Below, in pieces: positions 10,113 through 53,293 of a stretch of 64,000 nucleotides of DNA. Source of the DNA: Mycolicibacterium goodii. GTDB lineage: Bacteria > Actinomycetota > Actinomycetes > Mycobacteriales > Mycobacteriaceae. Location: contig NZ_CP092364.2 of the NCBI RefSeq assembly GCF_022370755.2, positions 5,952,001-6,016,000 of the forward strand, read 5' to 3'. Below the pieces are notes generated by a model. It worked only from the letters and a program-made list of their open reading frames with translations, was not told where the DNA came from and ran no database searches. A program made the position numbers and the translations under genes. Position 1 is the stretch's first letter; each line of letters begins with the position of its first letter.

Positions 10113-11111
10113 ATGTTCAGAAAGGTCACCACAAGCGCGCGCACGGTCGGTGCCGTCCTCATGGCAGGCTCGCTGGTTCTGGGAATGACCGCGTGCGGCG
10201 GGTCGGGTTCCGACAGCGTGAAGGTCGGCCTGATCACCAAGACCGATTCGAACCCCTACTTCGTGAAGCTGCGGGAGGCCGCCCAGGCGCAGGCCGACAA
10301 GGACGGCGCCCAATTGATCGCGGTCGCCGGGGCGTTCGACGGTGACAACGAAGGCCAGGTCACGGCCATCGAGAACATGGTCGGTCAGGGTGTGAAGGGC
10401 ATCCTGATCACCCCGAACTCGTCCACCGGCGTGCTCGACGCGATCAAGAAGGCGCGCGACGCGGGTGTCGTCGTCATCGCACTCGACACCGCCACCGAGC
10501 CCGAGGACGCCGTGGACGCCACCTTCGCGACAGACAACAAGGCCGCAGGCGTCAGCCAGGGCAAGTGGGTCAGGGCGGCTCTGGGCAACACCCCGCCGCA
10601 GGTCGTCATGCTCGACGGGACCCCGGGCGGCACCGTCGACACCTTCCGCCACGACGGATTCCTGGAAGGCTTCGGTCTCACCGAGAACTCGCCGGAGATC
10701 GTCGGTCGGGAGAACACCAACGGCGACCAGACCAAGGCGCAGACCGCCATGGAGAACCTCCTGCAGCGCGCCCCTGGCGTCAACGCGCTCTACACCATCA
10801 ACGAGCCCGCCGCGGCCGGTGCCTACCAGGCGATCCAGTCAGCCGGTCGCGCAGGCCAGATCACCATCGGGTCGATCGACGGAAGTTGCACGGGCGTCGC
10901 GGATGTGAAGTCCGGGAAGATCGGTGCGACGGTCATGCAGTTCCCCGCCAAGATGGCCGAACTCGGGGTGCAGGCCGTGGTCAAGTTCGCCCAGGACGGC
11001 ACCAAGCCCAGCGGCTTCAACGACACGGGGTCCGAACTCATCACCGACCGGCCGATGCCGGGGCTCGAGTCGAAGGACACCGCATGGGGCGAGCAGAACT
11101 GCTGGGGCTGA
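10113..11111 (+). CDS. Sugar ABC transporter substrate-binding lipoprotein (FrcB/RbsB-like)
   Basis: 332 residues. The lipoprotein signal ends GMTAC, placing the acylated Cys near residue 28 on the outer face of the membrane. The mature protein is a periplasmic-binding-protein-1 type (RbsB/FrcB): VGLITKTDSNPYFVKLREAA, then GILITPNSSTGVLDAI, VIALDTATEP, and TINEPAAAGAYQAI with the GSIDGSC hinge. These proteins catch a monosaccharide or polyol for an ABC importer. First gene of a six-gene unit under the LacI operator; AAGGGAG lies 7 nt before ATG. The gene order (binding protein, permease, ATPase, then kinases) resembles the frcBCAK fructose system, but the ligand is not provable from sequence. 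Confidence 0.87.
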   Translation: MFRKVTTSARTVGAVLMAGSLVLGMTACGGSGSDSVKVGLITKTDSNPYFVKLREAAQAQADKDGAQLIAVAGAFDGDNEGQVTAIENMVGQGVKGILITPNSSTGVLDAIKKARDAGVVVIALDTATEPEDAVDATFATDNKAAGVSQGKWVRAALGNTPPQVVMLDGTPGGTVDTFRHDGFLEGFGLTENSPEIVGRENTNGDQTKAQTAMENLLQRAPGVNALYTINEPAAAGAYQAIQSAGRAGQITIGSIDGSCTGVADVKSGKIGATVMQFPAKMAELGVQAVVKFAQDGTKPSGFNDTGSELITDRPMPGLESKDTAWGEQNCWG

Positions 11112-11112
11112 G

Positions 11113-12123
11113 ATGTCCGAAACATCGGTAACGGCCACCGCTCCCGCGACGAGGACACCTTCGCCGGCGAAACGGTTCAACATGGGGACACTCCTGCGTG
11201 AACCGCTGGTCGGCCCGCTCGTGGCATTGGTCATCGCGATCATCGTCTTCAGTTCGATCTCGGACTCGTTCCTCAACCCGCAGAACGTGTCGTTGATCCT
11301 GCAGCAGTCGGTGGTCGTGGGCATCCTCGCCGTCGGCCAGACGCTGATCATCCTGACCGCGGGCATCGATCTCTCGATCGGCGCGGTCGCCGTATTCGGC
11401 ACGATCGTGATGGCACAGGCCGCAGGCCCAGGAGGTCCGTTCCTGGCGCTCGGGGCGACGATGCTGGTGTGCGTGGCGTTCGGTGCGATCAACGGCGGGC
11501 TCGTCACAACCCTGCGGCTGCCGCCGTTCATCGTGACCTTGGGTACCTTCACCGCGATCCTTGCCGGTACCCGACTGCTCGCCGGATCGGAGACCTACCG
11601 TGTGGAGCCGGGGCCGCTCACGTTCCTCGGCACGTCGTTTCGCATCGGATCGTTCTCGACGACCTACGGCGTGGTCGCCATGCTGCTGGTTTATGCAGTC
11701 GTGTGGTACGCGTTGTCCCAAACCGCCTGGGGTAAGCACGTTTACGCTGTCGGCGGAAACCCGCAGGCGTCGAATCTGCTGGGCGTCAAGTCCGGACGGG
11801 TGCTGTTCTCGGTCTACATCGTCACCGGTGTGATCGCCGCGATCGCCGCCTGGGCTGCGCTGGGCCGCATCCCGAATGCCGACCCCAACGCGTACCAGAA
11901 CGCCAACCTCGAGACCATCACGGCGGTGGTCATCGGCGGCACTAGCCTGTTCGGCGGTCGCGGCGGCGTCGGTGGCACGCTCGTGGGCATGCTGATCGTC
12001 GCGGTGCTGCGCAACGGGCTCACCCAGGCCGGCGTTGACAGCCTCTACCAGAACATCGCCACCGGCATCCTCGTGATCGTGGCGGTCGCGGTGGATCAAT
12101 TCGCGCGCAGGAGATCACAATGA
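11113..12123 (+). CDS. Sugar ABC transporter permease (FrcC/RbsC-like)
   Basis: 336 residues with about ten hydrophobic segments, matching the BPD_transp_2 family (RbsC/FrcC). Diagnostic stretches are QSVVVGILAVGQTLIILTAG, DLSIGAVAV, the GGLVTTLRLPPFIVTLGTF segment typical of ribose/fructose permeases, and TAVVIGGTSLFGGRGGVGGT near the C-terminus. It forms the membrane channel of the importer. I start at ATG 11113, one base after the binding-protein stop; a longer frame to 10924 only overlaps that gene. It overlaps the ATPase gene by 4 bp (ATGA), which suggests translational coupling. Confidence 0.9.
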   Translation: MSETSVTATAPATRTPSPAKRFNMGTLLREPLVGPLVALVIAIIVFSSISDSFLNPQNVSLILQQSVVVGILAVGQTLIILTAGIDLSIGAVAVFGTIVMAQAAGPGGPFLALGATMLVCVAFGAINGGLVTTLRLPPFIVTLGTFTAILAGTRLLAGSETYRVEPGPLTFLGTSFRIGSFSTTYGVVAMLLVYAVVWYALSQTAWGKHVYAVGGNPQASNLLGVKSGRVLFSVYIVTGVIAAIAAWAALGRIPNADPNAYQNANLETITAVVIGGTSLFGGRGGVGGTLVGMLIVAVLRNGLTQAGVDSLYQNIATGILVIVAVAVDQFARRRSQ

Positions 12124-12914
12124 CGACCACCACGAGCGGCGCACCCGTCCTCGAAGCACGCGGACTCGTCAAGAGGTACGGCAACGTGACCGCGATCAAC
12201 GGCGCCGACTTCGAACTGCGCGCCGGTGAGGTGCTTGCGGTCGTCGGGGACAACGGCGCCGGAAAGTCCAGTCTCATCAAAGCTCTGGCGGGCGCGATCG
12301 TCCCCGATTCGGGACAGATCCTGATGAACGGTGTGCCCGTATCCTTCCGCAACACCCGCGACGCTCGAGCGGCCGGGATCGAGACGGTCTATCAGGACCT
12401 CGCGGTCGTACCGGCCCTCGACATCGCGTCGAACCTGTATCTCGGACGTGAGATCCGGCGAAAAGGCATCGCAGGCAGGCTGTTCCGCCGGTTGGACATG
12501 CCCGGGATGCGGCAGGATGCCGCACAGCACCTCGCGGACCTCAAGATCGGCATCAAGTCGGTGGGTCAGGCCGTGGAGACGCTGTCCGGCGGGCAGCGTC
12601 AAGGTGTGGCGGTGGCGCGTGCGGCCGCGTTCGGTCGTGGCGTGATCATCATGGACGAGCCGACCGCGGCCCTCGGCGTACGGGAATCCGGTCAGGTCAT
12701 CGACCTGATCAAGTCGATTCGAGACCGCGGCATCCCGGTGGTGCTCATCAGCCACGACATGCCGCACGTCTTCGAGGTGTCCGACCGGATCCACATCCAC
12801 CGACTCGGGCAGCGTGCCGGAGTCGTCGACCCGAAGAAGCGCTCGATGTCAGAGGTCGTCGCGCTCATGACCGGTGCGGAGGAGCCGACCGATGAGGAAC
12901 GCGCCGGTCTCTGA
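12120..12914 (+). CDS. Sugar ABC transporter ATPase (FrcA-like, single domain)
   Basis: 264 residues, one nucleotide-binding domain. Walker A is GDNGAGKSSLIKAL, the Q-loop region is VYQDLAVVPALD, the signature is LSGGQRQGVAVARA, Walker B is VIIMDEPTAAL and the switch His is in LISHDMPHV. Most ribose/xylose importers use a duplicated ATPase of about 500 residues, whereas the fructose type (FrcA) uses a single domain as seen here. This supports an FrcBCA-like importer. The 3' end overlaps the following PfkB gene by 23 bp. Confidence 0.9.
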   Translation: MTTTTSGAPVLEARGLVKRYGNVTAINGADFELRAGEVLAVVGDNGAGKSSLIKALAGAIVPDSGQILMNGVPVSFRNTRDARAAGIETVYQDLAVVPALDIASNLYLGREIRRKGIAGRLFRRLDMPGMRQDAAQHLADLKIGIKSVGQAVETLSGGQRQGVAVARAAAFGRGVIIMDEPTAALGVRESGQVIDLIKSIRDRGIPVVLISHDMPHVFEVSDRIHIHRLGQRAGVVDPKKRSMSEVVALMTGAEEPTDEERAGL

Positions 12915-13824
12915 GGAGGCCCCGGTCGGGATCTTCGTCGGGTTGGCGACGCTCGACGTGATCCACCGCATCGCCGAACCGCCTGCGGTGAACGAGAAGA
13001 TCACCTCGACCGCACAGTTCGTCGCCGCGGGTGGCCCTGCGGCAAATGCCGCCGTCACGTTCGCCGCGCTGGGCGGGCAGGCGGTACTGGTGACCGCCCT
13101 CGGCGACGATCCGGTTGCTGATCTGATCCGCGCCGACCTGGCTGCGCACGACGTCCGCGTCGTCGACACGGCCGCCGGGACGACGCGAACGGTTCCCGTG
13201 TCCTGCGTCTCGGTCGTCGAATCCACCGGCGACCGGTCGGTCGTCTCGGCCGACGCAGTGACCTCAGACGCATCGCCGCCCGACGACCTCGCCGACGTCG
13301 TGGCTCGCGCCGATGTGGTGCTCGTCGACGGTCATCACCCGGTGATGGCCCGTGCTGCCGTCCGGCTTGCGGCCGAACGCGGGATCCCCGTCGTCGTCGA
13401 CGCGGGACGGTGGAAACCGGTGATGGCCGACCTCGTCCCTTTTGTCTCGGACATGGTGTGTTCCGGCGACTTCCGCACACCCGGCGCCGACACCTCGGAG
13501 ATCACGGCCGCAGCGCTGCTCGGCGAAGGCGTTGGCACCGTGGTCATCACCCACGGCGGCGACGCCGTCACGTGGTGGGCCGGTGGCGAATACGGTGCCG
13601 TTCCGGTGCCCGAGGTGACGGTCGTCGACACCCTGGGTGCCGGTGACGCCTTCCACGGGGCTTATTCCTACTATTCGACCCGGCCCGACGGCGGAGTTGC
13701 CGATCGCATCGATCGCTCGTCACGCGTGGCGGCACTACGGTGTTCGGTGATCGGGCCACGGGCGTGGCTGAGCAAACTCCCCGGCCGACCGGCCGGAGTG
13801 CAGATTCGAAAGCGAGAACGGTGA
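12892..13824 (+). CDS. PfkB-family carbohydrate kinase
   Basis: 310 residues of the ribokinase/PfkB family. FVAAGGPAANAAVTFAALGG is the N-terminal GG substrate motif, and VVDTLGAGDAFHGAY near residue 250 is the intact DTxGAGD motif with the catalytic Asp. SGDFRTPGADTSE stands where N-x-x-E metal-site residues are usual. It should phosphorylate the imported sugar or its derivative in the cytoplasm. I take ATG 12892, preceded by GGAGGAG, instead of the longer frame; it then overlaps the ATPase gene by 23 bp. Its stop overlaps the next start by 4 bp (GTGA). Confidence 0.84.
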   Translation: MRNAPVSEEAPVGIFVGLATLDVIHRIAEPPAVNEKITSTAQFVAAGGPAANAAVTFAALGGQAVLVTALGDDPVADLIRADLAAHDVRVVDTAAGTTRTVPVSCVSVVESTGDRSVVSADAVTSDASPPDDLADVVARADVVLVDGHHPVMARAAVRLAAERGIPVVVDAGRWKPVMADLVPFVSDMVCSGDFRTPGADTSEITAAALLGEGVGTVVITHGGDAVTWWAGGEYGAVPVPEVTVVDTLGAGDAFHGAYSYYSTRPDGGVADRIDRSSRVAALRCSVIGPRAWLSKLPGRPAGVQIRKRER

Positions 13825-14471
13825 CCAACGTGCAGGACGTGCAGGAGGCCACACTGGACCAGCTGGTCGAGTGGGCGAAAGCACTCGTCGTCCCAGGCGA
13901 ACGCCGCATCCTGGGCCTCACCGGAGCGCCGGCGGCCGGGAAGTCCACCGTCGCCGAACAACTCGTCGCCGCGCTGGGACCCGACACGGCCGTCCTCGTC
14001 CCGATGGATGGTTTCCACCTCGCCAACGAGGTCCTGATCGACCTCGGCCGCCGCGACCGCAAGGGCGCCCACGACACCTTCGACGACGGCGGATACGCTC
14101 GGCTGATCGCGACCCTGAGGGCGCAGCGCATCGGCGAGCCGGTCCTGTACGCACCGCGCTTCCACCGCGAGATCGAGGAGTCGATCGCGTCGTCGATTCC
14201 GGTCCACTCCACGGTCCCGCTGGTTGTCACCGAGGGCAATTACCTTCTGCTGGACCGTGATGCGTGGCCCACGGCACGCGCGTGCATCGATGAGGTGTGG
14301 TTCCTGGCGCTCGACACCGACGTCCGCCACGACCGGCTGCGGCGCCGCCACGAGGCGTTCGGGAAATCCCCGGAGGACGCCGCGCGCTGGGCCCTCGGAC
14401 CCGACGAGCGCAACGCCCAGTTGATCGAGTCGACCGCAGGTCGCGCGGACCGGATCGTGCGTGTGTCGTGA
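13821..14471 (+). CDS. FrcK-like P-loop kinase (uridine kinase/pantothenate kinase fold)
   Basis: 216 residues. The P-loop is GLTGAPAAGKSTVAEQL near residue 35. PMDGFHLANEVL carries the Asp-Gly-Phe-His block shared with phosphoribulokinase/uridine kinase and CoaA. VVTEGNYLLL is the Walker-B-like strand, and RLRRRHEAFGK is the Arg-rich lid. This is the protein usually called fructose transport system kinase FrcK; its true substrate is not known to me. The GTG start overlaps the PfkB stop. Presence of two unrelated kinases in one uptake operon suggests two phosphorylation steps or two substrates. Confidence 0.78.
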   Translation: MTNVQDVQEATLDQLVEWAKALVVPGERRILGLTGAPAAGKSTVAEQLVAALGPDTAVLVPMDGFHLANEVLIDLGRRDRKGAHDTFDDGGYARLIATLRAQRIGEPVLYAPRFHREIEESIASSIPVHSTVPLVVTEGNYLLLDRDAWPTARACIDEVWFLALDTDVRHDRLRRRHEAFGKSPEDAARWALGPDERNAQLIESTAGRADRIVRVS

Positions 14472-15466
14472 CCACGATGGATGACGTGGCGCGCCTCGCT
14501 GGCGTCTCGACATCCACGGTGTCGCATGTGCTCAACGGCACCCGCAAGGTCAACGACGAGACCCGGTTGCGCGTCGAGGAGGCGATCGAGAAAACCGGGT
14601 ACCGGCGCAACGTCGTCGCGCGGGCGCTCGCCGCCGGCCGAACGAACACGATCGGGCTCTCGATCTCCGCGTTGACCAACCCGTACTTCGGGAGCCTGGT
14701 CCACGCCGTGGAACGGGCGCTGTCCGACGCCGGGTATGTGCTGATCGTGGGTGATTCCCACGACGAAGCGGAGTCGGAGAAGCGGGTGGTCGATTCGCTT
14801 CTCGGCCGCAAGGTCGACGGTATGATCGTCGCGCCCGCGGCCGGCTCCGCACAGGCAAGCCTCCCCGAGATCGCGCGTGCCCGAACACCTCTGGTGCTCA
14901 TCGACCGCGGCGCCGATATCGAAAGCGATCAGGTCGGTCCGGAGAACATCGAGTCGGCCCGCGCGTTGACCGAGCATCTGCTCGATATCGGGCACCGGCG
15001 CATCGCCGTGGTGCGAGGCCTGGCCGGGATCTCCTCCACCACAGAGCGATTCGACGGTTACCGCTCGGCACTGGCCCACCGCGGAATCGCACTCGACCCG
15101 GACCTGATCGTCGACGGCGAATCCAACACCGACGCCGCCGAACGCGGCGTGCACGCGCTGATGTCGGGAACGAACCGACCGACCGCGCTGGTGTCGATGA
15201 ACAACGCCATGACCATCGGCACCCTCAAGGCGATCCGCCGTCTGGGCCTGACGATCCCGGCGGACGTCGCCTTCGTCTGCTACGACGACTTCGAATGGTC
15301 GGACCTGTTCGAGCCCAAGCTCACCGCGGCAGCACAAGATGTCGAGACCATCGGTGCCACCGCGGTAGAACTGCTGTTGCGCCGCATCCAGGGCGACGAG
15401 AGCGCACCCCAACACATTCGGGTGCCGACGACGTTGCATCACCGCAATTCGTGTGGGTGCACCTGA
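14468..15466 (+). CDS. LacI-family transcriptional regulator of the ABC operon
   Basis: 332 residues. The N-terminal helix-turn-helix reads MDDVARLAGVSTSTVSHVLN followed by GTRKVNDETR, the LacI DNA-binding signature with hinge helix. Residues 60-325 form a type-1 binding-protein-like sensor domain, with NPYFGSLVHAVE, LVLIDRGADI and PADVAFVCYDDFEWSDLF. It overlaps the previous gene by 4 bp (GTGA), so it is expressed with the operon it presumably represses. The tandem AAGCGCTT operator at 10026-10049 is its likely target. Translation could also begin at ATG 14477. Confidence 0.9.
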   Translation: MTTMDDVARLAGVSTSTVSHVLNGTRKVNDETRLRVEEAIEKTGYRRNVVARALAAGRTNTIGLSISALTNPYFGSLVHAVERALSDAGYVLIVGDSHDEAESEKRVVDSLLGRKVDGMIVAPAAGSAQASLPEIARARTPLVLIDRGADIESDQVGPENIESARALTEHLLDIGHRRIAVVRGLAGISSTTERFDGYRSALAHRGIALDPDLIVDGESNTDAAERGVHALMSGTNRPTALVSMNNAMTIGTLKAIRRLGLTIPADVAFVCYDDFEWSDLFEPKLTAAAQDVETIGATAVELLLRRIQGDESAPQHIRVPTTLHHRNSCGCT

Positions 15467-15585: not shown

Positions 15586-16986
15586 TCAGCTGGCGATCAG
15601 GTAGACCGCCGAAGCCAGCACGAACGACATGAACCCGATGGCGGTGGCGACCACGGTCCACGTCTTCAACGTGGTGATCGTGTCGAAACCGCAGAATCGG
15701 CCGATCAGCCAGAAACCCGAATCGTTGACGTGCGAGAAGGTGATCGAACCCGCCGCGATGCCGACCACGACCGCCGCCAGCGCGACACTGCCGAGGTTCA
15801 TCTCCATGACGGCCGGGGCCATGATCGACCCCGTGGTGGTGGCCGCCACTGTGGCCGACCCCTGCGCGACGCGGAAGGCGATCGCGATGAGGAAGCCCGC
15901 GAGAATGACCGGCAGGCCGAGCGCGTCGAGTCCGTCCGCGAGGGTCTTGCCGATCCCGGTCTCGGTGAGGACGCGGCCGAAGGCACCACCCGCACCGGTG
16001 ATCAGGATGATCGAACACACCGGTGCCAGCGCGTCGTCGACAAGGTTCTCCAGCAGCCCGCCGATCGGTTCGCCGCGGCGCCGACGCGGCCGGATGTACA
16101 GCAACACCATGGCCAGCAGGACGCTGATCAGCAACGCCATCGAGGTCGTGCCGATCAGACGCGAAAGCTGGTACGCGATATTGTCTTTCGTCACCGCGCC
16201 GTCTGCCTCGAGGGTCGAGAACACCGTGTTGAAGAAGATCAACGCCAACGGCAGCAGCAGGACGAAGATCACGGTCCAGAACCCTGGCCGCTCGTCTTCC
16301 GGATAGTCCTTGGGCTCACCGAGCAGCGACGGCACCGGCATGTTCGGGTAGCGCTTGGCGATGATCAGGCTGAGCCGGTATCCCGCGAGATACCACGTCG
16401 GCAGGCCGACGAGCAGCGCCACGATCACCACCATGCCGACGTCGGCGCCCATCACCGTCGCCGCGGCCGTCGGGCCGGGGTGCGGTGGGGTCAGCGCGTG
16501 CATCATCAGGAACGCGCCGATGGACGGCAGCACGTACAGCATGAAGGATCCGCCGAGGCGCCGGGCCACCGTGTAGATGATCGGCAGCATCACGATGAAG
16601 CCGGCGTCGAGGAAGATCGGGAACGCGTAGAACAGCGAGGCCACGGCGAGCGCGAGCGGTGCCTTGCGCTCGCCGAACCGGTCGAGCATCTTCTCGGCGA
16701 GAACCTGTGCGCCGCCCGTCATCTCGACGAGCCGCCCGAGAACGGCGCCGAACCCCACGAGTAGTGCGACCGTACCGACGGTGTTGCTGAAACCGGCGAT
16801 GACGACGTCGATGACATCGCCCATGCTGATGCCTGCGGCGAGGCCGGTCAGCACGCTGACGACGATCAACGAGAAGAAGGCGTGGAGCCTGACCTTGATG
16901 ATCAGGAAGAGCAGAACCGCGATGGCGACAAGCGCAATGACGATCAGCAGAGCGGCAGGCCGCTCCGCGAGGGCGATCTCGTCCAT
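15586..16986 (-). CDS. GntP-family sugar-acid permease
   Basis: 466 residues with 12 or more hydrophobic helices. The protein matches the gluconate:H+ symporter (GntP) family: IKVRLHAFFSLIVVS, GFGAVLGRLVEMTGGAQVLA, FLDAGFIVMLPI, MMHALTPPHPGPTAAA and HVNDSGFWLIGRF, all hallmarks of the family. Members import aldonic acids such as gluconate, idonate or glycerate. It is the third gene of a minus-strand unit behind a TIM-barrel enzyme and an oxidoreductase, and a stem-loop sits between it and the oxidoreductase. Being the only transporter in this locus, it points to an acid as the substrate. Confidence 0.9.
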   Translation of the reverse strand: MDEIALAERPAALLIVIALVAIAVLLFLIIKVRLHAFFSLIVVSVLTGLAAGISMGDVIDVVIAGFSNTVGTVALLVGFGAVLGRLVEMTGGAQVLAEKMLDRFGERKAPLALAVASLFYAFPIFLDAGFIVMLPIIYTVARRLGGSFMLYVLPSIGAFLMMHALTPPHPGPTAAATVMGADVGMVVIVALLVGLPTWYLAGYRLSLIIAKRYPNMPVPSLLGEPKDYPEDERPGFWTVIFVLLLPLALIFFNTVFSTLEADGAVTKDNIAYQLSRLIGTTSMALLISVLLAMVLLYIRPRRRRGEPIGGLLENLVDDALAPVCSIILITGAGGAFGRVLTETGIGKTLADGLDALGLPVILAGFLIAIAFRVAQGSATVAATTTGSIMAPAVMEMNLGSVALAAVVVGIAAGSITFSHVNDSGFWLIGRFCGFDTITTLKTWTVVATAIGFMSFVLASAVYLIAS

Positions 16987-17016
16987 GGGGACCCTTCAGT
17001 TTTGGTGAGCGGGAGG

Positions 17017-17041
17017 TCGGCCGTCACCGAAAGACGGCCGA
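17017..17041 (-). terminator. Stem-loop between oxidoreductase and GntP genes
   Basis: A 9-bp perfect stem (TCGGCCGTC with GACGGCCGA) closes a 7-nt loop in the 66-nt gap between the dehydrogenase stop and the gntP start. There is no U-run. It may be a partial terminator or an mRNA-processing/stability element that lowers permease expression relative to the upstream enzymes. Confidence 0.45.
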
Positions 17042-17052
17042 TGAAACGATGG

Positions 17053-18015
17053 TCAGGCTCCCTTCGGGGCCGGTCCGAGTTCGCGCAGCAGGTCGGCCAT
17101 GCGGGAGTACGCCTTGTTGCGGTACGCGATGACCGCGGCCTTGGTGTCGTCGTCGAAGTCGCCCGTCCACCCCTTGCCGTTCTTGGTGCCGTGGCGGCCG
17201 GCGTCGACATTGTCCGTGAGGAGCTTGGGAGTGGCCATGCGCTCACCGAATTCGTTCTCCAGAGTGCGGAACCCCTTGACGTACACGTCGAGCCCGGCCT
17301 GATCGGCGATGGCGAACGGACCGAAGAAGCCCAACCGGAAGCCGAAAGTGGTGCGGACGATGGTGTCGACGTCCTCCATCGTGGCCACGCCCTGTTCGAC
17401 GATCAGCGTCGCCTCTTTCAGCAGGGCGTACTGCAGCCGGTTCAGTGCCATCCCGGGTGTGTCCGCCACCTGGGCGCCCTCACGTCCGGCCCGCACCAGA
17501 AGGTCCTTCACCGAATCGATGACCTCCTGTGTTGTGGCGTCACCCGCGACGAGCTCCACACCGGGGATGAACGGTGCCGGGTTGGAGAAGTGCACGGTGA
17601 GGAACCGCTCGGGGTTGGTGACCGCTTCGACGAGGACCTTCACCGGGATGGTGGACGTATTGGTACCGATGATCGTGTCGGGGCGGGCGCTCCTACACAC
17701 CCGTGCCAGCACGTCCTTCTTGACGTCGGGATCCTCGAAGACGGCTTCCATGACGAAGTCGACGTCGGCAACGGCGGCCTCGAGGCTCTCGCCGGCCGTG
17801 AGGTTGCTCATGATCGTGTCGGCGCTGCCAGGGCCGAACAGGCCCTGTTCTTCGAATTCCCGTGCCTCCCTGTCCAACCGCTTGAGCGCTTCGCGGGTGG
17901 CATCGGCGTTGACGTCGGCGATCTGGACCTTGAACCCGTTGAGAGCCAGGACCTGGGCGATCCCGCCGCCCATGTAACCGGCGCCGACGACTGTGACGGT
18001 GTTGATCTTGCGCAT
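17053..18015 (-). CDS. 3-hydroxyacyl-CoA-dehydrogenase-fold oxidoreductase, probably for a sugar acid
   Basis: 320 residues. The N-terminal Rossmann domain has GAGYMGGGIAQVLALNG for NAD binding. VHFSNPAPFIPGVELV near residues 140-155 supplies the catalytic His and Glu. The C-terminal helical domain (GMALNRLQYALLKEA, GFRLGFFGPFAIADQAGLD) is also present. In true 3-hydroxybutyryl-CoA dehydrogenases the motif is HFFNPVPVMKLVE. The variant here is closer in style to relatives acting on non-CoA hydroxy acids, such as L-gulonate 3-dehydrogenase and carnitine dehydrogenase. Its place between a GntP permease and a TIM-barrel enzyme supports oxidation of an aldonate to a 3-keto acid; the exact substrate is inferred. 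Confidence 0.72.
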   Translation of the reverse strand: MRKINTVTVVGAGYMGGGIAQVLALNGFKVQIADVNADATREALKRLDREAREFEEQGLFGPGSADTIMSNLTAGESLEAAVADVDFVMEAVFEDPDVKKDVLARVCRSARPDTIIGTNTSTIPVKVLVEAVTNPERFLTVHFSNPAPFIPGVELVAGDATTQEVIDSVKDLLVRAGREGAQVADTPGMALNRLQYALLKEATLIVEQGVATMEDVDTIVRTTFGFRLGFFGPFAIADQAGLDVYVKGFRTLENEFGERMATPKLLTDNVDAGRHGTKNGKGWTGDFDDDTKAAVIAYRNKAYSRMADLLRELGPAPKGA

Positions 18016-18039
18016 GAGATGTCCTTCGGATGTGGTGGA

Positions 18040-18960
18040 TCAGGCGAGTGCGGAGGTGAGGACCTGCAGGATGTACTCCCGGTTCTCGGCGCACACGCCC
18101 AGGGAATCGGAGCCGTAGTGCTCGCAGCAGAACGGACCCGAGTAGCCGAGTTCCAGTGCGAGACGGATGATCTGGCGGTAATTGATGTATCCGTACTTCA
18201 ACGGCAGCGGCGCGGAGCTGTAGGCGCCGGTCGCCGGATCGAAGTCTCGTGAGTAGTTCTTGATGTGCCAGAAGTTCGAGTACGGAAGCACTTTGGCATA
18301 CATCTCGGTGTAGTGCGGCATGGGCCGGTGCAGCCGGATCAGGTTCCCCAGATCGGGGTTGAGTCCCACCGCGTCGTGGTCGACGTCGCGGATGAACGCC
18401 ACCGCGTCGTCCGGCGTTCCGATGTAGGTGTCCTCGTACATCTCGAGGCTGAGCTGGATGCCGTTGGTGCGGGCGTGGTCACCGAGCTCCCGGACGCGTT
18501 CGATCGCCAGGTCGCGCAGCGCCGGATCGTCCACGTGCCCCTGCACCAACCAGAACCAGATCTGCTCGTCCTGCTCGGGGGTGATCGCCTGCATGAAGCC
18601 GGTGTTGACGATGGTGGCCCCGAACGACGGTGCCAGGTCGATGAGGCGGTGAGCGTCGGCGAGGTTCTGCTCGCCGTTCTCGACGTCGACGACGGAGTTG
18701 CGCGTCATGGAGATCGACGAGATCGCCAGACCCTCGTCGCTCAGGACCGTGCGGAACTCCTCGACGCGACTGTCCGAGAGCGCGGCGAGCGGAACCCAGG
18801 CGTCGGTGGGGTCGATGTGGTCGAAGCCGAGTTCACGGACCTGTCGCAGTTGCTTCGCCCACACGCCGGCCGGGGCGTCCTTGATGTGGCCGCCATCGGG
18901 CGCTCGATTGCCGAATCCCAGCATGTTCGCCGCGATCGGCCAGGTGTGAGCAGAGTACAT
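18040..18960 (-). CDS. Xylose-isomerase-like TIM-barrel enzyme (sugar isomerase or keto-acid decarboxylase)
   Basis: 306 residues of the AP-endonuclease-2/xylose isomerase-like TIM-barrel family. Likely metal ligands are Glu in LSLEMYEDTYIG, Asp in VGLNPDLGNL, His in NFWHIKNYSRDF and Glu in PFCCEHYGSDS. Relatives include hydroxypyruvate isomerase, tagatose epimerases, 2-oxo-tetronate isomerase and, as I recall, a decarboxylase that turns 3-oxo-isoapionate into L-erythrulose. It is the promoter-proximal gene of the minus-strand unit and is followed 24 nt later by the oxidoreductase. With the tetrulose kinase and isomerases in the same locus, decarboxylation or isomerisation of a keto-acid product is plausible but unproved. 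Confidence 0.7.
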   Translation of the reverse strand: MYSAHTWPIAANMLGFGNRAPDGGHIKDAPAGVWAKQLRQVRELGFDHIDPTDAWVPLAALSDSRVEEFRTVLSDEGLAISSISMTRNSVVDVENGEQNLADAHRLIDLAPSFGATIVNTGFMQAITPEQDEQIWFWLVQGHVDDPALRDLAIERVRELGDHARTNGIQLSLEMYEDTYIGTPDDAVAFIRDVDHDAVGLNPDLGNLIRLHRPMPHYTEMYAKVLPYSNFWHIKNYSRDFDPATGAYSSAPLPLKYGYINYRQIIRLALELGYSGPFCCEHYGSDSLGVCAENREYILQVLTSALA

Positions 18961-18978
18961 CCCTGGTCCTCCAAGTGG

Positions 18979-19014
18979 TTTGTGTCACAAATTGCTCGTT
19001 AAATCACATAGGAT
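18979..19014. promoter_or_regulatory. Divergent operator region for the GntR regulator
   Basis: Two candidate sites lie between the TIM-barrel start (18960) and the GntR start. TTTGTGTCACAAA (18979-18991) is a dyad that fits the FadR-type GntR pattern TNGTNNNACNA. ATCACATAGGAT (19003-19014) matches 10 of 12 bases of the perfect palindrome ATCCTATAGGAT found before the kinase operon at 19927-19938. The shared sequence is the better candidate for a common operator. Confidence 0.5.
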
Positions 19015-19022
19015 ATAGGGGT

Positions 19023-19913
19023 GTGACCCCGTCGTGTCAACGCCGGTTAGACTTCAGCGCGACTCTGTCGGGCCGCAATCATGAGCCCGACGCGTCCGAG
19101 GCGGCAGTGGAGCCGCGCGTGCGCAATGGGCGTGAAGTGGAAGCCGACCTGGAAGCAGTCTTGAAAGCAGATCCGGAAGCAGACCTGGAAGCGGGCCGGG
19201 AACCCGAGGGAGACCCGAGGCCGGTCCGCAGCACGCTCGTCGACCAGGTCTATGAGCGGCTGATGGAGCTGGTCCTCAACGGAACCCTGAAGGCGGGAGA
19301 TCCGGTCAGCATTGACGGAACCGCCCGTCACCTGGGCGTTTCACAAACGCCGGTGCGGGAGGCGCTGGCCCGCATGGAGTCGACGGGCCTCGTCGTCCGG
19401 GTGGCGATGCGCGGGTACCGCGTGCCGGAGATGCCGGATGCCAAGGAGATCGCCGACATCATGGACGCCCGGTTGCTCATCGAGCCACAACTGGCCGAAC
19501 TGGCCTGCGCCCACGCGGATCCGCAATGGCTGGGCGCGCTGGAGCAGGCGATCGACGAACAGGAACGCGCGCCGCACACCGCGGACGCCGCGGCGATCAG
19601 GCAGTACCACCGCGCCGACGAGCAGTTCCACCGGCTTATCGCCGAACGTGCAGGTAACGCGGCACTTCTGCGCGCCTACGACGCACTGGGCGGGCACGGC
19701 CAACGGTTCCGGCTGTTCATCGGTGTAGGCGTGCAGGACTCCGATTTCGCAGTCGCCGAGCACCGGGAACTTCTGGCCGCGTTCCGGCGCGGATACGGGC
19801 CCGAGGTGTACCGCATCATGCATGCCCACATCAGCGGCGTGAAGGAACGCGCACTGGCCGAGCATGCCGAGGCCGTCCACACGCACTCGGCGCAGAATGG
19901 CCGTCACCGCTGA
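19023..19913 (+). CDS. GntR/FadR-family regulator of the tetrulose locus
   Basis: 296 residues from GTG 19023. The winged helix spans about 75-140: LVDQVYERLMELVLNGTLKA, then GTARHLGVSQTPVREALARM. The FCD ligand domain follows (MDARLLIEPQLAELA, EQFHRLIAERAGN, EHRELLAAF, with metal-ligand His residues such as MHAHISG). An unusual acidic N-terminal extension with repeated EADLEA-like units precedes the DNA-binding domain, so a later start (for example GTG 19108) is possible. It separates the minus-strand permease/oxidoreductase unit from the plus-strand kinase/isomerase unit, and related operator sequences occur before both, so it probably coordinates them. Confidence 0.83.
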   Translation: MTPSCQRRLDFSATLSGRNHEPDASEAAVEPRVRNGREVEADLEAVLKADPEADLEAGREPEGDPRPVRSTLVDQVYERLMELVLNGTLKAGDPVSIDGTARHLGVSQTPVREALARMESTGLVVRVAMRGYRVPEMPDAKEIADIMDARLLIEPQLAELACAHADPQWLGALEQAIDEQERAPHTADAAAIRQYHRADEQFHRLIAERAGNAALLRAYDALGGHGQRFRLFIGVGVQDSDFAVAEHRELLAAFRRGYGPEVYRIMHAHISGVKERALAEHAEAVHTHSAQNGRHR

Positions 19914-19926
19914 CTTCGTGACCGAA

Positions 19927-19938
19927 ATCCTATAGGAT
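19927..19938. promoter_or_regulatory. Palindromic GntR operator before the kinase operon
   Basis: A perfect 12-bp palindrome, ATCCTATAGGAT, lies 14 nt after the GntR stop and 71 nt before the kinase start. A 10/12 match lies in the divergent promoter region at 19003-19014. The repeat of an AT-rich dyad in otherwise GC-rich DNA on both sides of the regulator gene supports an operator. Confidence 0.6.
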
Positions 19939-20009
19939 CGTGTCATCCCGACCGCGTCACGCAGTGCTTGCACCGCGCCCTGACCGGACCCATTCCGAAG
20001 GATGGAACA

Positions 20010-21725
20010 GTGACGTACCTCCTGAACTCCCCGGACGACTTCGCCGACCAGGCGGTCCGGGGCCTCGTGGCCGCCAACCCCGACCTCCTCACCGAGGTTC
20101 CCGGCGGTGTCGTCCGGTCGACCGAGACCCCGAAGGGCCAACCCGCCCTGGTGATCGGTGGGGGCTCAGGCCACTACCCGGCCTTCGCCGGATGGGTCGG
20201 ACCCGGCATGGGGCACGGCGCACCGTGCGGCAACATCTTCTCGTCGCCATCGGCGACCGAGGTCTACTCCGTGGTGCGCAACGCCGAGAACGGCGGCGGC
20301 GTCATCCTCGGATTCGGCAACTACGCCGGTGACGTCCTGCACTTCGGTCTCGCCGCAGAGAAGTTGCGGCACGAGGGCATCGACGTGCGCATCGTCACCG
20401 TCAGCGACGACATCGCCTCCAACAGTCCGCAGAACCACCGCGACCGACGCGGCGTCGCCGGCGACCTGCCGGTGTTCAAGATCGCCGGTGCCGCAATCGA
20501 AGCCGGCGCAAACCTCGACGAAGCCGAGCGGGTGGCCTGGAAGGCCAACGATGCGACCCGCTCGTTCGGCGTGGCATTCGAGGGCTGCACCCTGCCCGGC
20601 GCAGATGAGCCGCTGTTCCACGTCGAAAAAGGCTGGATGGGCGTGGGGCTGGGGATCCACGGCGAGCCGGGCGTGCGGGACAACCGTCTCGGCACCGCGG
20701 CCGAGGTCGCGGACATGCTGTTCGACGAAGTGACGGCCGAGGAGCCTCCCCGCGGCGAGAACGGGTACGACGGCCGCGTGGCGGTGATCCTCAACGGTCT
20801 CGGCACGGTGAAATACGAAGAGCTCTTCGTCGTGTACGGACGCATCGCCGAACGCCTTGCCGAGCAAGGGTTCACCGTCGTACGCCCAGAGGTCGGTGAA
20901 TTCGTCACCAGCCTGGACATGGCCGGTGTGTCGTTGACCATGGTGTTCCTCGACGACGAACTCGAACGGTTGTGGACCGCACCGGTGGAGACGCCGGCCT
21001 ACCGCCGCGGGGCGATGCCGACCGTGGACCGCACACCTCGCACCGCGATCTGGGACGCCGCGGAGACGAACATCCCGCAGTCCACCGAGGACTCGCGGGA
21101 CTGCGCACGCAATATCGTTGCGGTGCTTGAGACTTTGCATCAGGTGTGTGCCGACAACGAGGGCGAACTGGGCCGCATCGACGCGGTCGCCGGCGACGGT
21201 GACCACGGCCAGGGCATGACGTTCGGATCCCGCGGTGCGGCGCAGGCGGCGCGCCGCGCGGTGGACCAGAACGCAGGCGCACGCACGACGCTGCTGCTGG
21301 CCGGTCAGGCCTGGGCCGACGCGGCAGGCGGAACTTCCGGTGCGCTGTGGGGCGCGGCGCTGACCAGCGCCGGAGGCGTCTTCACCGATACCGACGGTGC
21401 GGGCGACCAGACCATTGTCGACGCCATCTGCGCCGGCATCGACGCCGTCCTGCGGCTCGGCGGCGCGCAACCGGGGGACAAGACCATGGTCGACGCGGCC
21501 GTGCCTTTCCGCGATGCGCTCCGCGCGTCGTTCGACACGCAGGCCGGTCCCGCGATCGCCAGCGCAGCCAAGGTGGCGCGCGAAGCCGCCGAGAAAACTG
21601 CGGACATAGCCGCGCGACTGGGTCGCGCGCGGGTACTCGGGGAGAAGAGCGTCGGCACGCCCGACCCGGGTGCACTGTCGTTCGCGCTGTTGATGAAAGC
21701 CCTGGGCGAGCACCTCACCCAGTGA
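20010..21725 (+). CDS. DhaK-DhaL fusion kinase, probable erythrulose kinase (LerK/DerK type)
   Basis: 571 residues, ATP-dependent dihydroxyacetone-kinase architecture. Residues 1-330 are the DhaK domain: VIGGGSGHYPAFAGWVGPGM, VRIVTVSDDIAS, and GIHGEPGVRDNR carrying the His that holds the keto substrate covalently. Residues about 370-570 are the ATP-binding DhaL domain, with the metal-chelating DAVAGDGDHGQGMTFGSRG and GGTSGALWGAAL. GTG 20010 follows GAAGGATGG. In M. smegmatis, fusions of this kind beside RpiB and TIM paralogues phosphorylate L- or D-erythrulose in tetritol catabolism. The two isomerase genes directly downstream make that assignment likelier than dihydroxyacetone. L versus D specificity cannot be read here. 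Confidence 0.83.
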   Translation: MTYLLNSPDDFADQAVRGLVAANPDLLTEVPGGVVRSTETPKGQPALVIGGGSGHYPAFAGWVGPGMGHGAPCGNIFSSPSATEVYSVVRNAENGGGVILGFGNYAGDVLHFGLAAEKLRHEGIDVRIVTVSDDIASNSPQNHRDRRGVAGDLPVFKIAGAAIEAGANLDEAERVAWKANDATRSFGVAFEGCTLPGADEPLFHVEKGWMGVGLGIHGEPGVRDNRLGTAAEVADMLFDEVTAEEPPRGENGYDGRVAVILNGLGTVKYEELFVVYGRIAERLAEQGFTVVRPEVGEFVTSLDMAGVSLTMVFLDDELERLWTAPVETPAYRRGAMPTVDRTPRTAIWDAAETNIPQSTEDSRDCARNIVAVLETLHQVCADNEGELGRIDAVAGDGDHGQGMTFGSRGAAQAARRAVDQNAGARTTLLLAGQAWADAAGGTSGALWGAALTSAGGVFTDTDGAGDQTIVDAICAGIDAVLRLGGAQPGDKTMVDAAVPFRDALRASFDTQAGPAIASAAKVAREAAEKTADIAARLGRARVLGEKSVGTPDPGALSFALLMKALGEHLTQ

Positions 21726-21742
21726 ACGAGAAGGAGAGAACC

Positions 21743-22201
21743 ATGGCGTTGAAGATCGTCATCGGCGGCGACAACGCCGGATTCAACTACAAGGAAGCGC
21801 TGCGCAAGGACCTCGAGTCCGACGACCGGGTGGCCTCTGTCGAAGACGTCGGCGTCGCAGGCATCGACGACAACACGTCCTATCCGAATGTCGCAGTGGC
21901 GGCCGCCGAGAAGATCGCGCGGGGCGAAGCCGACCGTGCGCTGCTGATCTGCGGTACCGGGCTGGGCGTGGCGATTGCGGCCAACAAGGTCAAGGGCATA
22001 CGCGCGGTCACCGCACACGATGTGTACTCCGTCCAGCGGTCCGTACTGTCGAACAACGCGCAGGTGTTGTGCATGGGCGAGCGGGTCGTGGGGCTGGAAC
22101 TGGCGCGTGCGCTGGTGAAGGAATGGCTCGGCCTCGAGTTCGACCCGCAGTCCGCCTCCGCCGCCAAGGTCAATGACATCTGTGCGTACGAGGGAGCCTG
22201 A
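21743..22201 (+). CDS. RpiB-family isomerase, probable D-erythrulose 4-phosphate isomerase (DerI type)
   Basis: 152 residues of the ribose-5-phosphate isomerase B/LacAB family. IGGDNAGFNYKEAL gives the N-terminal phosphate/substrate loop, and LLICGTGLGVAIAANKVKGI is the GTGxG active-site loop whose Cys is the catalytic base of the RpiB type. AHDVYSVQRSVLSNNAQVLCMG is the remaining family block. In the erythrulose pathway this class converts D-erythrulose 4-phosphate to D-erythrose 4-phosphate, which enters the pentose phosphate pathway. AAGGAGAG gives a strong ribosome-binding site for ATG 21743. It overlaps the next gene by 29 bp. Confidence 0.85.
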   Translation: MALKIVIGGDNAGFNYKEALRKDLESDDRVASVEDVGVAGIDDNTSYPNVAVAAAEKIARGEADRALLICGTGLGVAIAANKVKGIRAVTAHDVYSVQRSVLSNNAQVLCMGERVVGLELARALVKEWLGLEFDPQSASAAKVNDICAYEGA

Positions 22202-22985
22202 GGCGCGGGCGCTCGGCGCCGCGCAGCTGTGGATCGGCACCAGCTGGAAGATGAACAAGGGCCTCGCCGAGTCCCGTCGCTACGCGCGCGAACTCGCCGA
22301 CTACGTCAGTGCGAACGCGATACCCGGCGTCCAGCCGTTCATCATCCCGTCGTTCACCGCACTCGCCGCCACCCGTGACGAGTTGGGCGACGATTCGCCG
22401 GTGCTGCTCGGGGTGCAGAACGCACACTGGGAGGACCACGGAGCCTGGACCGGCGAGGTCTCGGTCGCGCAGGCAAAGGACGCCGGAGCGCAGCTCGTCG
22501 AGATCGGTCACTCCGAGCGTCGCGAGCACTTCGGCGAAACCCTCGAGACCACGCGACTCAAGGTGGCCGCGGCGCTCGCGCACGGTCTGGTGCCGCTGCT
22601 CTGCATCGGCGAGAGCGCCGAGACCAAACGCGCCGGCGACTCATCCAGATTCATCCTGGAGCAGGCCGCCGGCGCGCTCGACGGTCTCACCGACGAGCAG
22701 CTGCGCCGAGTTCTCATTGCGTACGAACCGATCTGGGCGATCGGCGAGCACGGCCGGCCCGCCACCGTCGAGGAATTACGCAAGCCGTTCGCCGACCTGG
22801 GACGCGAATATGGCGGCAGCACACTCGGTCTGCTCTACGGCGGGTCGGTGAACACCGACAACGCCGAGGAGCTGCTCGGCATCGACCACGTCACGGGACT
22901 GTTCATCGGCCGAGCCGCGTGGCAATTGCCCGGATATGTGCGGATCCTCGAGCTGGCCGCGGCTCATCCCAAGGCGAGCGCCTGA
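22173..22985 (+). CDS. Triose-phosphate-isomerase paralogue, probable L-erythrulose 1-phosphate isomerase (LerI type)
   Basis: 270 residues, TIM family. GTSWKMNKG carries Asn and the active-site Lys, VEIGHSERREHFGET the catalytic His and following loop, and IAYEPIWAIGEHGRPA the catalytic Glu. LLYGGSVNTDNAEELL is the phosphate-binding end. Loop 6 departs from the strict AIGTGKTA of housekeeping TIM, with IGEHGRPA instead, as expected for a paralogue with another substrate. In the tetritol pathway this class turns L-erythrulose 1-phosphate into D-erythrulose 4-phosphate, the substrate of the adjacent RpiB protein. ATG 22173 overlaps the RpiB gene; GTG 22182 is an alternative. Confidence 0.82.
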   Translation: MTSVRTREPEARALGAAQLWIGTSWKMNKGLAESRRYARELADYVSANAIPGVQPFIIPSFTALAATRDELGDDSPVLLGVQNAHWEDHGAWTGEVSVAQAKDAGAQLVEIGHSERREHFGETLETTRLKVAAALAHGLVPLLCIGESAETKRAGDSSRFILEQAAGALDGLTDEQLRRVLIAYEPIWAIGEHGRPATVEELRKPFADLGREYGGSTLGLLYGGSVNTDNAEELLGIDHVTGLFIGRAAWQLPGYVRILELAAAHPKASA

Positions 22986-38436: not shown

Positions 38437-40140
38437 TCAGCTGACGCCGAGGCGGACGTCGGGCGCGCCGAGGCGTGCGGCGTCCGCGGTGTAGTCGTCG
38501 AGCTGGTGTTGCGACTCCCGCTCGGCGGCGACCCGCGCATCGTAATGCGCGACTTCGCGGGCGATATCGGCCTCACCCCAACCCAGCACCGGTGCGACCA
38601 GATCGGCGACCTCGCGTGCGGCGGCCGTCCCGCGGTCGGCGACCTCTATCGAGATCCGGGTGCGGCGGGTCAGCACATCCTCGAGGTGGCGGGCCCCCTC
38701 GTGACTGGCCGCGTAGTACGCCTCGACCTTCAGGTACTCGGGTGCCCCCGACAGCGGTACTCCCAGTTCCGGGCGCTGCGCGACGATGTCGAGCAACTCG
38801 TCGGTCAATGTCCCGTAGCGGCCCAGCAGATGTTCGATCGTCGCCACTGCCAATCCACTCGACTCGGCGCTGCGGCGCCGATTGTTCCAGGCCCCCGGGT
38901 AGCCGTCGGCCCCGAGCAGCGGCACGCGCTCGGTGCACGAGGCCGGCACCGCACGATTGAGTCCTTGGACCGCGAGATCCACAGCGTCCTTTGCCATCAC
39001 GCGGTAGGTGGTGTACTTGCCGCCGGCGATGACCGTGAGGCCGGAAACCGGGTTGGCGACCGCGTGCTCGCGCGAGAGCTTGCTGGTCGAGTCGGACTCC
39101 CCGGCCAGCAGCGGACGCAACCCGGCGTACACGCCGACGACGTCGTCTGCGGTGAGCGGATCGGCGAGCAGGGTGTTGACGTGCCCGAGCAGGTACTCGA
39201 TGTCGGCCCGGCTCGCGGCCGGATGGGCCAGGTCCAGCGACCAGTCGGTGTCGGTGGTGCCGACGATCCAGTGGCTGCCCCACGGAATGACGAACAGCAG
39301 GCTCTTCTCGGTGCGCGTGATGATGCCGGTCGACGAGTTGATCCGGTCTCGCGGCACCACGAGATGCACACCCTTGGAGGCTCGTACCCGGAACTTGCCC
39401 CGACCACCGGCCATGCCCTGTGTCTCGTCCGTCCACACCCCGGTGGCGTTGATGACCTGCCGTGCGCGGATGTCGAATTGGCGGCCACTCTCCAGATCCC
39501 GTACCCGGGCCCCGACGACACGGTCGCCGTCGCGCAGGAAACCCGTCACCCGGGTGCTGTTCGCGCACGATGCGCCGAAGTGCGCGGCCGTGCGGATCAG
39601 CGTCATGGTGTGCCGGGCGTCGTCCACCTGCCCCTCGTAGAAGCGGATTGCGCCGCGGATCGCCGAACTGCCCGAGGGGAACGACTCGAGTGTCCGCCCG
39701 CGGCCCAGGTGCTCGTGGTGCCCGGGCACCCCCCGCCCGGCGCCCATGACGTCATAGACCCCGATTCCCAGTCCCGCGTAGGCGCGGTCGAACCGCGTCC
39801 GCAGCGGGTAGATGAACGGCACCGGTCGCGCCAGGTGGGGGCACAGCGTGTTGAGCACAAGCGAGCGTTCCCGCAGCGCCTCGAAGACCAGCGAGAAGTT
39901 GAACTGCTCGAGGTAGCGCAGCCCGCCGTGGAAGAGCTTGCTCGACCGGCTCGACGTGCCCGACGCGTAGTCTCGCGCCTCGACCAGCCCCACCCGCAGC
40001 CCGCGGGTGGCGGCGTCGAGGGCGGCACCCGCACCCACGACACCGCCCCCGATGACCAGGATGTCGAACTCGTCGCTGCCCAACCGGTCGAGTGCCTCGG
40101 TGCGTTGGGACGGACCCAACGGATGTGCGCTCACGCTCAC
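38437..40140 (-). CDS. glpD: FAD-dependent glycerol-3-phosphate dehydrogenase
   Basis: 567 residues. [20 protein letters not shown] is the FAD-binding dinucleotide loop, [20 protein letters not shown] is the signature of the family, and [15 protein letters not shown] marks the substrate-domain end. The C-terminal helical domain is complete. It oxidises glycerol 3-phosphate to dihydroxyacetone phosphate at the membrane and passes electrons to the quinone pool. GTG 40140 overlaps the glpK stop (GTGA), completing a glpF-glpK-glpD operon. A TTG five codons earlier keeps the frame but has no better site. Confidence 0.93.
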
Positions 40141-41651: not shown

Positions 41652-41674
41652 TGCGAGTCCTTTCGTGGATTGCG

Positions 41675-42499
41675 TCAGACCGCGGATGCGGCTGCGGGAC
41701 GGGGGGTTTCGTCGTCATCGAGCATCGGAGGCTCGTCGGGCAGGAAGCGCTCGATCAGCCAGCGGTAGGCCCCGGCCCCGACGAGTGCGCCGATCAGTGG
41801 TCCGACGATGGGCACCCAGAAATACAGCATCCCGTTCTGGTCCTGAAAGGCCGTGCTGTAGCCGGTGATGAACGACGCCAACCGGGGCCCGAGGTCCCGG
41901 GCAGGGTTGATCGCATACCCCGCGTTGGCACCCCACGCCATGCCGATGCCGACGACGACGAGACCGATGATCACCGGCGCGAGCCGCGTCCATGGACCGT
42001 GGTTGCGTGCGTCGGTCAACGCCATCACGAGGAACAGGAGGATCGCGGTACCGACGATCTGATCGAGGAGCGCGGTGCCCTGGCTGATGGGGAGTGCACC
42101 GTTGCCGGGCAGGGTCGAGAAGATGCCCTGGGTGGCGATCGTGTGGTTCGGGTCGACCGATGCGATGGCTTCGCTGTAGGTGACCCGCACGATCAACGCG
42201 GCCGCGAAGGCGCCGAGTAGCTGGGCGATGCTGAACGGAAGCACCTTGCGCCACGGGAAGTCCCGGAACACCGCCATCGCGAGGGTGACGGCAGGGTTGA
42301 GGTGTGCGCCGCTGATCCTGGCCGCGGTGTAGACGCCGAGGATCACGCCAAGACCCCAGCCCCACGCGATGGAATCGTGGTCACCGAGTGCCCCGTCGCC
42401 GGTGACGACCTGTGCGACCACGCCTACTCCGAACAGGATGAGGATGAGGGTGCCGGCGAACTCGGCGCAGAGTTCTCCGACGAGGGTTCGTCGTGTCAT
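41675..42499 (-). CDS. glpF: Glycerol uptake facilitator (aquaglyceroporin)
   Basis: 274 residues with six membrane helices and both half-helix motifs: [18 protein letters not shown] and [16 protein letters not shown]. The D-L-G-P-R after the second NPA is the glycerol-channel type, since water channels usually lack Asp there. It lets glycerol cross the membrane before GlpK traps it. First gene of the glpF-glpK-glpD operon, whose promoter region (42500-42669) is shared with the divergent iclR-glpK2 pair and contains tandem dyads. Confidence 0.93.

Positions 42500-53289: not shown

Positions 53290-53293
<4 letters not shown>

Follow-up and report, generated by a model that had tools for sequence, protein, structure and literature searches.

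A candidate catabolic module for a five-carbon aldonate, joined to erythrulose metabolism, in Mycolicibacterium goodii

We analysed a stretch of 64,000 nucleotides (hereafter the window; positions 5,952,001-6,016,000 of a single-contig genome of 6.74 Mb) from Mycolicibacterium goodii. The subject is a seven-gene module at 15586-22985 of the window that may serve the catabolism of a sugar acid, and in which two divergent units flank a GntR/FCD gene. A first-pass annotation had described these units, and the open reading frame (ORF) list together with a Pfam scan places all of the genes where it had put them and in the families that it had named. The features of the module, in window coordinates, are as follows.

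15586-16986, minus strand: GntP-family permease (PF02447, 382.7 bits; TIGR00791, gluconate:H+ symporter, 352.6 bits, cut-off 292.75)
17053-18015, minus strand: 3HCDH-fold NAD dehydrogenase, here called HCDH (PF02737, 3HCDH_N, 174.5 bits; PF00725, 3HCDH, 78.4 bits)
18040-18960, minus strand: xylose-isomerase-like barrel, here called TIMb (PF01261, AP_endonuc_2, 111.8 bits)
18975-19913, plus strand: ORF of the GntR/FCD regulator (PF00392 and PF07729; helix-turn-helix at ORF residues 89-150)
19003-19014, minus strand: operator-like copy 1, ATCCTATGTGAT, which overlaps the TIMb promoter at its -10 region
19012-19040, minus strand: promoter-like sequence of the minus unit (TTGACA at 19035-19040, a 17-nt spacer, TATATC at 19012-19017)
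19927-19938, plus strand: operator-like copy 2, the perfect palindrome ATCCTATAGGAT, between gntR and the kinase gene
20010-21725, plus strand: DhaK-DhaL fusion kinase, LerK-like (PF02733, 370 bits; PF02734, 143 bits)
21743-22201, plus strand: RpiB-type isomerase, DerI-like (PF02502, LacAB_rpiB)
22173-22985, plus strand: paralogue of triosephosphate isomerase (TIM), LerI-like (closest solved relative 11ef)

The minus unit consists of GntP, HCDH and TIMb, with intergenic gaps of 66 and 24 nt, and the plus unit runs in the order GntR, DhaK-DhaL, RpiB and TIM paralogue. The kinase ORF opens at 19968 and the GTG at 20010 is the start position common to 12 related loci, while RpiB starts with the ATG at 21743. 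The GntR frame, open from 18975, runs through the TIMb promoter, and the true start of the regulator therefore lies further inside the ORF. Within the same frame, 19143-19196 contains an internal near-repeat, ADLEAVLKADPEADLEAG, and the DNA alignment is gapped there in 13 related loci. No polyol (tetritol) dehydrogenase and no tetritol ABC transporter occur among the genes of 15586-22985, in agreement with what had been said of the minus unit. The Pfam matches of the unit include no DUF1537 kinase, class II aldolase, FGGY kinase or glycerol-3-phosphate-dehydrogenase-like gene, and a CoA-ligase domain is absent from the ten window proteins scanned with Pfam.

The TIM paralogue scores 242.6 bits against 11ef, which is titled 'L-erythrulose-1-phosphate isomerase', and 151.7 bits, or 91 bits lower, against the next structure, a triosephosphate isomerase; it passes the generic TIM cut-off as well, and by this comparison its assignment as LerI is strong. 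The kinase is over the cut-off of the DAK-family subfamily and under that of glycerone kinase (370.6 vs 574.95), and the RpiB protein matches the actinobacterial ribose-5-phosphate isomerase model TIGR02133 (221.7 bits, cut-off 168.2) and scores under the cut-off of the DerI model NF051858 (150.1 bits, cut-off 240). As judged by homology, a LerK, LerI and DerI set is present downstream, and the first-pass description of the plus unit as an erythrulose kinase and isomerase set stands. A second LerK-like kinase, 52-53% identical, lies with an RpiB and transporter-like genes elsewhere in the same genome (L090:10423-12611). The two RpiB proteins are 70% identical, and the LerI-like protein of the window has no match in the 20-kb L090 stretch at 1e-8; L090 is perhaps a tetritol locus.

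HCDH scores below the cut-off for all 22 NCBIfam models listed, and the solved structures closest to it are 3-hydroxybutyryl-CoA dehydrogenases (161 bits). An alignment with five chains of this type shows that the Ser, His, Glu and Asn positions, which we take to be catalytic in HCDH too, are retained, and that its active-site loop has a three-residue insertion relative to all five CoA-dependent chains. This insertion carries an Arg, within FG[FYLM]R, in 57 of the 57 relatives collected. The active-site block HFSNPAPFIPGVELV, earlier quoted as looking like that of non-CoA hydroxy-acid members, is present in HCDH, and the insertion is in line with that judgement. In comparison with 4kug, the NHPMGP-type active-site loop of hydroxyacyl-CoA dehydrogenases is replaced by FRLGFFGP, and K50 and K54 (4kug numbering), presumably CoA-contacting lysines, lie opposite Glu and Gln. 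It is possible that the Arg of the insertion represents a carboxylate-binding change, and HCDH is predicted to be a free-acid dehydrogenase that oxidises C3 with NAD. HCDH-family enzymes oxidise the beta carbon, and a free aldonate would for this reason be converted to a beta-keto acid.

TIMb is 95% identical to 5tnv, an Mg-bound protein of Mycobacterium smegmatis whose title gives no function. Its structure model has a predicted local distance difference test (pLDDT) score of 95, and E173, D203, H232 and E280 are among the columns that are invariant in 30 sequences. We read TIMb as a putative metal-dependent 3-oxo-acid decarboxylase giving erythrulose, because a 3-oxo C5 acid that loses CO2 becomes erythrulose, the apparent substrate of the plus unit.

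The distribution of these genes was examined in a sample of 248 genomes of the genus, which are related by descent, with strict thresholds for TIMb and HCDH. Both are confined to the same 20 genomes (Fisher p 7e-30, ignoring shared descent), and a LerI-like gene is present in 18 of these 20 and in none of the 228 others. The two exceptions carry a second TIMb/HCDH version, about 52% identical, in the order GntR, then LerK-HCDH-MFS-TIMb-LerIb, and their LerI resembles the kind found in apionate-type operons. In a family-wide sample, just 2 of 201 genomes have TIMb at E 1e-60, both of them from the genus of the window.

The search for related loci used patterns derived from the protein of the window itself, and the best 80 of 129 were compared, 20 with short and 60 with full flanks; genes in the relatives were called by a home-made GC3 heuristic and counted by tblastn with self-chosen bit cut-offs. 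Near TIMb, the 80 loci contain LerK in 64, DerI in 53 and HCDH in 54, and 44 have all three of LerK, DerI and a LerI; the corresponding counts for the 60 full-flank loci are 51, 43, 42 and 35. None of LerK, DerI and LerI is present in 14 of the 80, and a transporter (GntP, TctA or galactonate-type MFS) occurs in 53. Loci beyond the mycobacteria come from Brachybacterium, Nesterenkonia, Rothia, Promicromonospora, Isoptericola, Carnimonas, Paracoccus, Sinorhizobium and others, so that the proposed mycobacterial variant was too narrow a description; the module has relatives in both Actinomycetota and Pseudomonadota, some of them with a different dehydrogenase.

At least one of four dehydrogenase types lies beside TIMb in 75 of the 80 loci and none in 5: HCDH in 54 (alone or with SDR), SDR only in 11, PdxA with or without SDR in 9, and DenD in 1. 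The SDR genes may be there by chance, being common. PdxA is another family of 3-hydroxyacid dehydrogenases. The Arg of its motif R-[ST]-S-x-D-H-G-T-A, which we assume to be phosphate-binding, is missing from 10 of 11 TIMb-linked relatives (nine from the 80 loci, plus those of L084 and L085), among them L084:7645-8691, L054:10994-11974 and L076:12822-13883; the eleventh, in L056, retains it and has a DUF1537 kinase nearby. This pattern suggests that the Arg-less relatives may act on unphosphorylated acids and feed the TIMb barrel. In addition, FMN-dependent L-2-hydroxyacid-type dehydrogenases are near TIMb in 13 of the 80 loci and D-2-hydroxyacid dehydrogenases in 12.

The promoter region was aligned in 14 mycobacterial sequences, namely the window and L002-L014. 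Upstream of TIMb, TTGACA and, 17 nt further on, CCTATATCCTAT are invariant in all 14. The whole 6.74-Mb genome has just two matches to the core palindrome ATCCTATNNGAT, one in the TIMb promoter and one ahead of LerK, and none to a reversed-pattern control. With the window included in both counts, copy 1 is exact in 10 of the 14 sequences and copy 2 in 11 of the 13 compared. The 67 non-mycobacterial loci, which were outside the motif definition, contain 33 sites, 28 of which, spread over 21 of these loci, lie no more than 250 nt upstream of a pathway gene. These near sites precede TIMb (15), HCDH (8), LerK (5), PdxA (4) and MFS (2), a site between divergent genes being counted for both. About 200 permuted patterns, which do not preserve the palindrome, gave means of 0.22 sites overall and 0.03 near pathway genes in the same loci, with maxima of 4 and 2. 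In Brachybacterium (L023, L032, L043) TIMb and HCDH each have their own operator-like site upstream, and a PdxA relative is preceded by one in Rothia, Brachybacterium and Isoptericola (L015, L039, L065).

The module is more than a chance assembly, because the gene set recurs in relatives and the operator-like sequence lies at two places only in the genome. Co-occurrence, neighbourhoods and common operator-like sites indicate that both units belong to one system, probably one regulon, and the tie that the first-pass annotation drew between an acid-uptake and oxidation unit and an erythrulose unit is supported by the genus sample and by these sites. The GntR protein may bind the ATCCTATNNGAT sites, and it probably represses both units.

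On balance, we think it likely that the module is a catabolic regulon for a five-carbon aldonate, degraded via a 3-oxo acid and L-erythrulose. GntP, for which aldonate uptake is the expected role, would import the acid, and HCDH, with NAD, would oxidise the free acid at its C3 hydroxyl, giving the 3-oxo (beta-keto) acid. TIMb would hold the C2 oxygen and the C3 carbonyl on a divalent metal and remove CO2, yielding L-erythrulose. LerK would convert L-erythrulose to L-erythrulose 1-phosphate, LerI would convert this to D-erythrulose 4-phosphate, and DerI would produce D-erythrose 4-phosphate, which would enter the pentose phosphate pathway. Repression by GntR at the ATCCTATNNGAT sites would be lifted by the acid or by a pathway intermediate. 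The earlier interpretation is partly supported, being right in outline with the central decarboxylation step a prediction.

The lower half of this route resembles the tetritol catabolism of Mycobacterium smegmatis that Huang et al. 2015 are said to have described, with which it has in common the LerK, LerI and DerI chemistry leading to D-erythrose 4-phosphate. That work is cited in PMC10733421 and PMC12780249, and the former has EltD and LerK converting L-threitol and erythritol to L-erythrulose 1-phosphate and D-erythrulose 4-phosphate, with LerI and DerI leading on to erythrose 4-phosphate. The window unit differs in having neither a polyol dehydrogenase nor a polyol ABC transporter.

LerI implies the L-erythrulose series, and the acid would therefore be an L-pentonate or a branched C5 acid. 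We favour a linear L-pentonate, of the L-arabinonate, L-xylonate, L-lyxonate or L-ribonate type, as distinctly the likelier of the two; an L-pentonate fits because its C4 becomes the L centre of the erythrulose implied by LerI. The FMN- and D-2-hydroxyacid dehydrogenases near TIMb would make sense in the C2 epimerisation of a linear acid. In Cellulomonas (L016:349-8933), genes for an alpha-L-arabinofuranosidase, a GH39 protein, an ABC transporter and an SDR are joined to TIMb-HCDH-LerK-DerI-LerI, a mix that hints at a pentose origin of the acid. The diketogulonate products named in passages of PMC6225978 are 2-oxo-L-threo-pentonate and carboxy-pentonates, not plain L-xylonate, and an ascorbate origin is for that reason a guess.

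In a competing scheme TIMb would act as a ketose 3-epimerase or isomerase, and CO2 would leave the 3-oxo acid on HCDH or spontaneously; a D-aldonate would give D-erythrulose, which TIMb would turn into L-erythrulose for LerK. Similarity within the superfamily does not choose between functions for TIMb: in single-sequence comparison another barrel of the window genome is closer to it than the OiaC-like protein, and most of the closest folds that have an assigned reaction belong to ketose 3-epimerases. The fold search could not tell the function of TIMb apart. However, the kinase could take D-erythrulose straight to D-erythrulose 4-phosphate, the compound that EltD and LerK make from erythritol (PMC10733421), leaving both TIMb and LerI needless. 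The same paper names EryC as the D-erythrulose-1-phosphate 3-epimerase of erythritol catabolism, a system that likewise places a barrel protein in one operon with LerI- and DerI-type isomerases. No similarity could be detected between TIMb and the single EryC compared, a Rhizobium protein identified by operon position (hhalign probability 1.7%, best blastp E 0.049), and the window unit lacks the FGGY kinase and the glycerol-3-phosphate-dehydrogenase-like gene. Moreover, TIMb occupies the operon slot that is held by a different barrel, a putative decarboxylase, in the apionate-type operons of Erwinia and Pantoea. We consider the epimerase explanation unlikely, although it deserves to be kept in view.

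Those operons offer the closest comparison for a decarboxylating TIMb. Carter et al. 2018 reportedly described D-apionate catabolism through 3-oxo-isoapionate to L-erythrulose, by way of ApnO and OiaC. The RuBisCO-like enzymes of the same study are summarised in PMC6302742. As predicted here, the window module would have in common with that pathway a free sugar acid as substrate, its NAD-dependent conversion to a 3-oxo acid, a PF01261-like barrel, L-erythrulose and LerK/LerI/DerI. The Erwinia and Pantoea plasmid operons have the order MFS-LerK-LerI-barrel-PF16896, plus DerI, and appear to fit the D-apionate pathway. We take PF16896 as a marker of ApnO (D-apionate oxidoisomerase), and the context agrees, since a PF16896 relative adjoins the annotated 3-oxo-isoapionate kinase OiaK; the identity of the apionate-operon barrel as OiaC is our assumption from context. 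The window module differs in having a 3HCDH-fold dehydrogenase instead of PF16896, a barrel of another subfamily, and a GntR/FCD regulator where those operons have an annotated 'sugar-binding transcriptional regulator'. An ApnO elsewhere in the window genome was considered and rejected, as PF16896 has no match there and has matches in 5 of the 6 other genomes or records searched. We likewise rejected the identification of TIMb with the known OiaC, the putative OiaC being a separate subfamily with 18% profile identity and about 270 residues as against 306. The profile similarity between the two (97%) was discarded as evidence, given the higher score against TIMb that another barrel of this genome reaches as a single sequence. 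Both barrels are present in 9 of the 80 loci. The suggestion that TIMb is the decarboxylase of the apionate route is not upheld.

A branched acid such as isoapionate (2-C-hydroxymethyl-tetronate) would be a special case of the aldonate route, in which HCDH makes the 3-oxo-isoapionate that ApnO forms from apionate and TIMb is a second, non-orthologous decarboxylase. Brachybacterium L025 and L030 contain an ApnO/OiaC-like module and a TIMb/HCDH module, each with its own GntP, together with one LerK/DerI/LerI set, and a common intermediate would explain the kinase set that the two modules share. On the other hand, the presence of two distinct barrels in a single genome points to two 3-oxo acids, not one, and the tertiary C2 could be no substrate for the FMN- and D-2-hydroxyacid dehydrogenases near TIMb. 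We know of no natural source of isoapionate, which we also count against this special case, and we give it a low probability.

Four-carbon acid sugar pathways employ OtnK/OtnC/OtnI, DenD, LtnD and PdxA2. Like the window module, they combine an acid transporter, a hydroxy-acid dehydrogenase and a hydroxypyruvate-isomerase-like barrel. Conceivably, HCDH could convert an acid of the threonate or erythronate type to 3-oxotetronate, TIMb could form dihydroxyacetone, and DhaK-DhaL could form dihydroxyacetone phosphate. The kinase does belong to the dihydroxyacetone kinase superfamily, some TIMb loci are near 3-oxo-tetronate kinase and aldolase genes, D-erythronate dehydrogenase is near TIMb in L074 (over the cut-off), and relatives of L-threonate dehydrogenase are near others (below the cut-off). 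However, this scheme leaves the DerI- and LerI-like isomerases unexplained, and a LerI-like gene occurs in no genome of the genus sample that lacks TIMb. The kinase falls short of the glycerone kinase cut-off, and the window unit has an erythrulose-type kinase with isomerases in place of the DUF1537 kinase and class II aldolase, so a four-carbon acid seems improbable.

That HCDH is an ordinary 3-hydroxyacyl-CoA dehydrogenase in a fortuitous neighbourhood, as its best solved relatives might suggest, is very improbable: it occurs in exactly the 20 of 248 genomes that have TIMb, several loci have an operator-like site ahead of HCDH alone, its active-site insertion is conserved, and the ten proteins scanned include no CoA-ligase domain.

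Other parts of the window were inspected by eye. The stretch 10113-15466, which ends just before gntP, contains sugar-ABC-type genes followed by two kinases (a PfkB kinase at 12874-13824 and a PRK09270-type kinase at 13740-14471) and a LacI-like ORF. In L008 these last three genes lie on the opposite side of the module, and the stretch therefore looks like a separate sugar unit. At 38437-44957 there are a glycerol dehydrogenase-like ORF, a channel protein and two glycerol-kinase-like ORFs (40137-41651, minus strand; 43440-44957, plus strand). At 50361-55486, two metallo-beta-lactamase-fold-like ORFs (50361-51557 and 54107-55486) and a DUF302-like ORF (51640-52035) perhaps form a duplicated sulfur-handling set.

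The HCDH-TIMb pair was not found described in the titles and abstract openings searched, although an earlier description is possible, as key subscription papers were outside that search. More tentatively, we raise the possibility of an undescribed oxidative pentose/pentonate route (L-pentonate to 3-oxo-pentonate, to L-erythrulose and CO2, to D-erythrose 4-phosphate) that differs from the Weimberg, Dahms and isomerase routes. In that case TIMb would be a general 3-oxo-aldonate decarboxylase hub with interchangeable dehydrogenases (HCDH, PdxA acting on unphosphorylated substrates, SDR and DenD) and a single conserved operator that is present in a sizeable share of the Actinomycetota loci and, among Pseudomonadota, in Carnimonas. 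The analysis provides a testable function for the orphan solved structure 5tnv and for an unnamed 3HCDH-fold family, and the operator-like sequence ATCCTATNNGAT marks the regulon in other genomes. If the proposed route is true, HCDH and TIMb would be a new dehydrogenase and decarboxylase pair feeding erythrulose metabolism.

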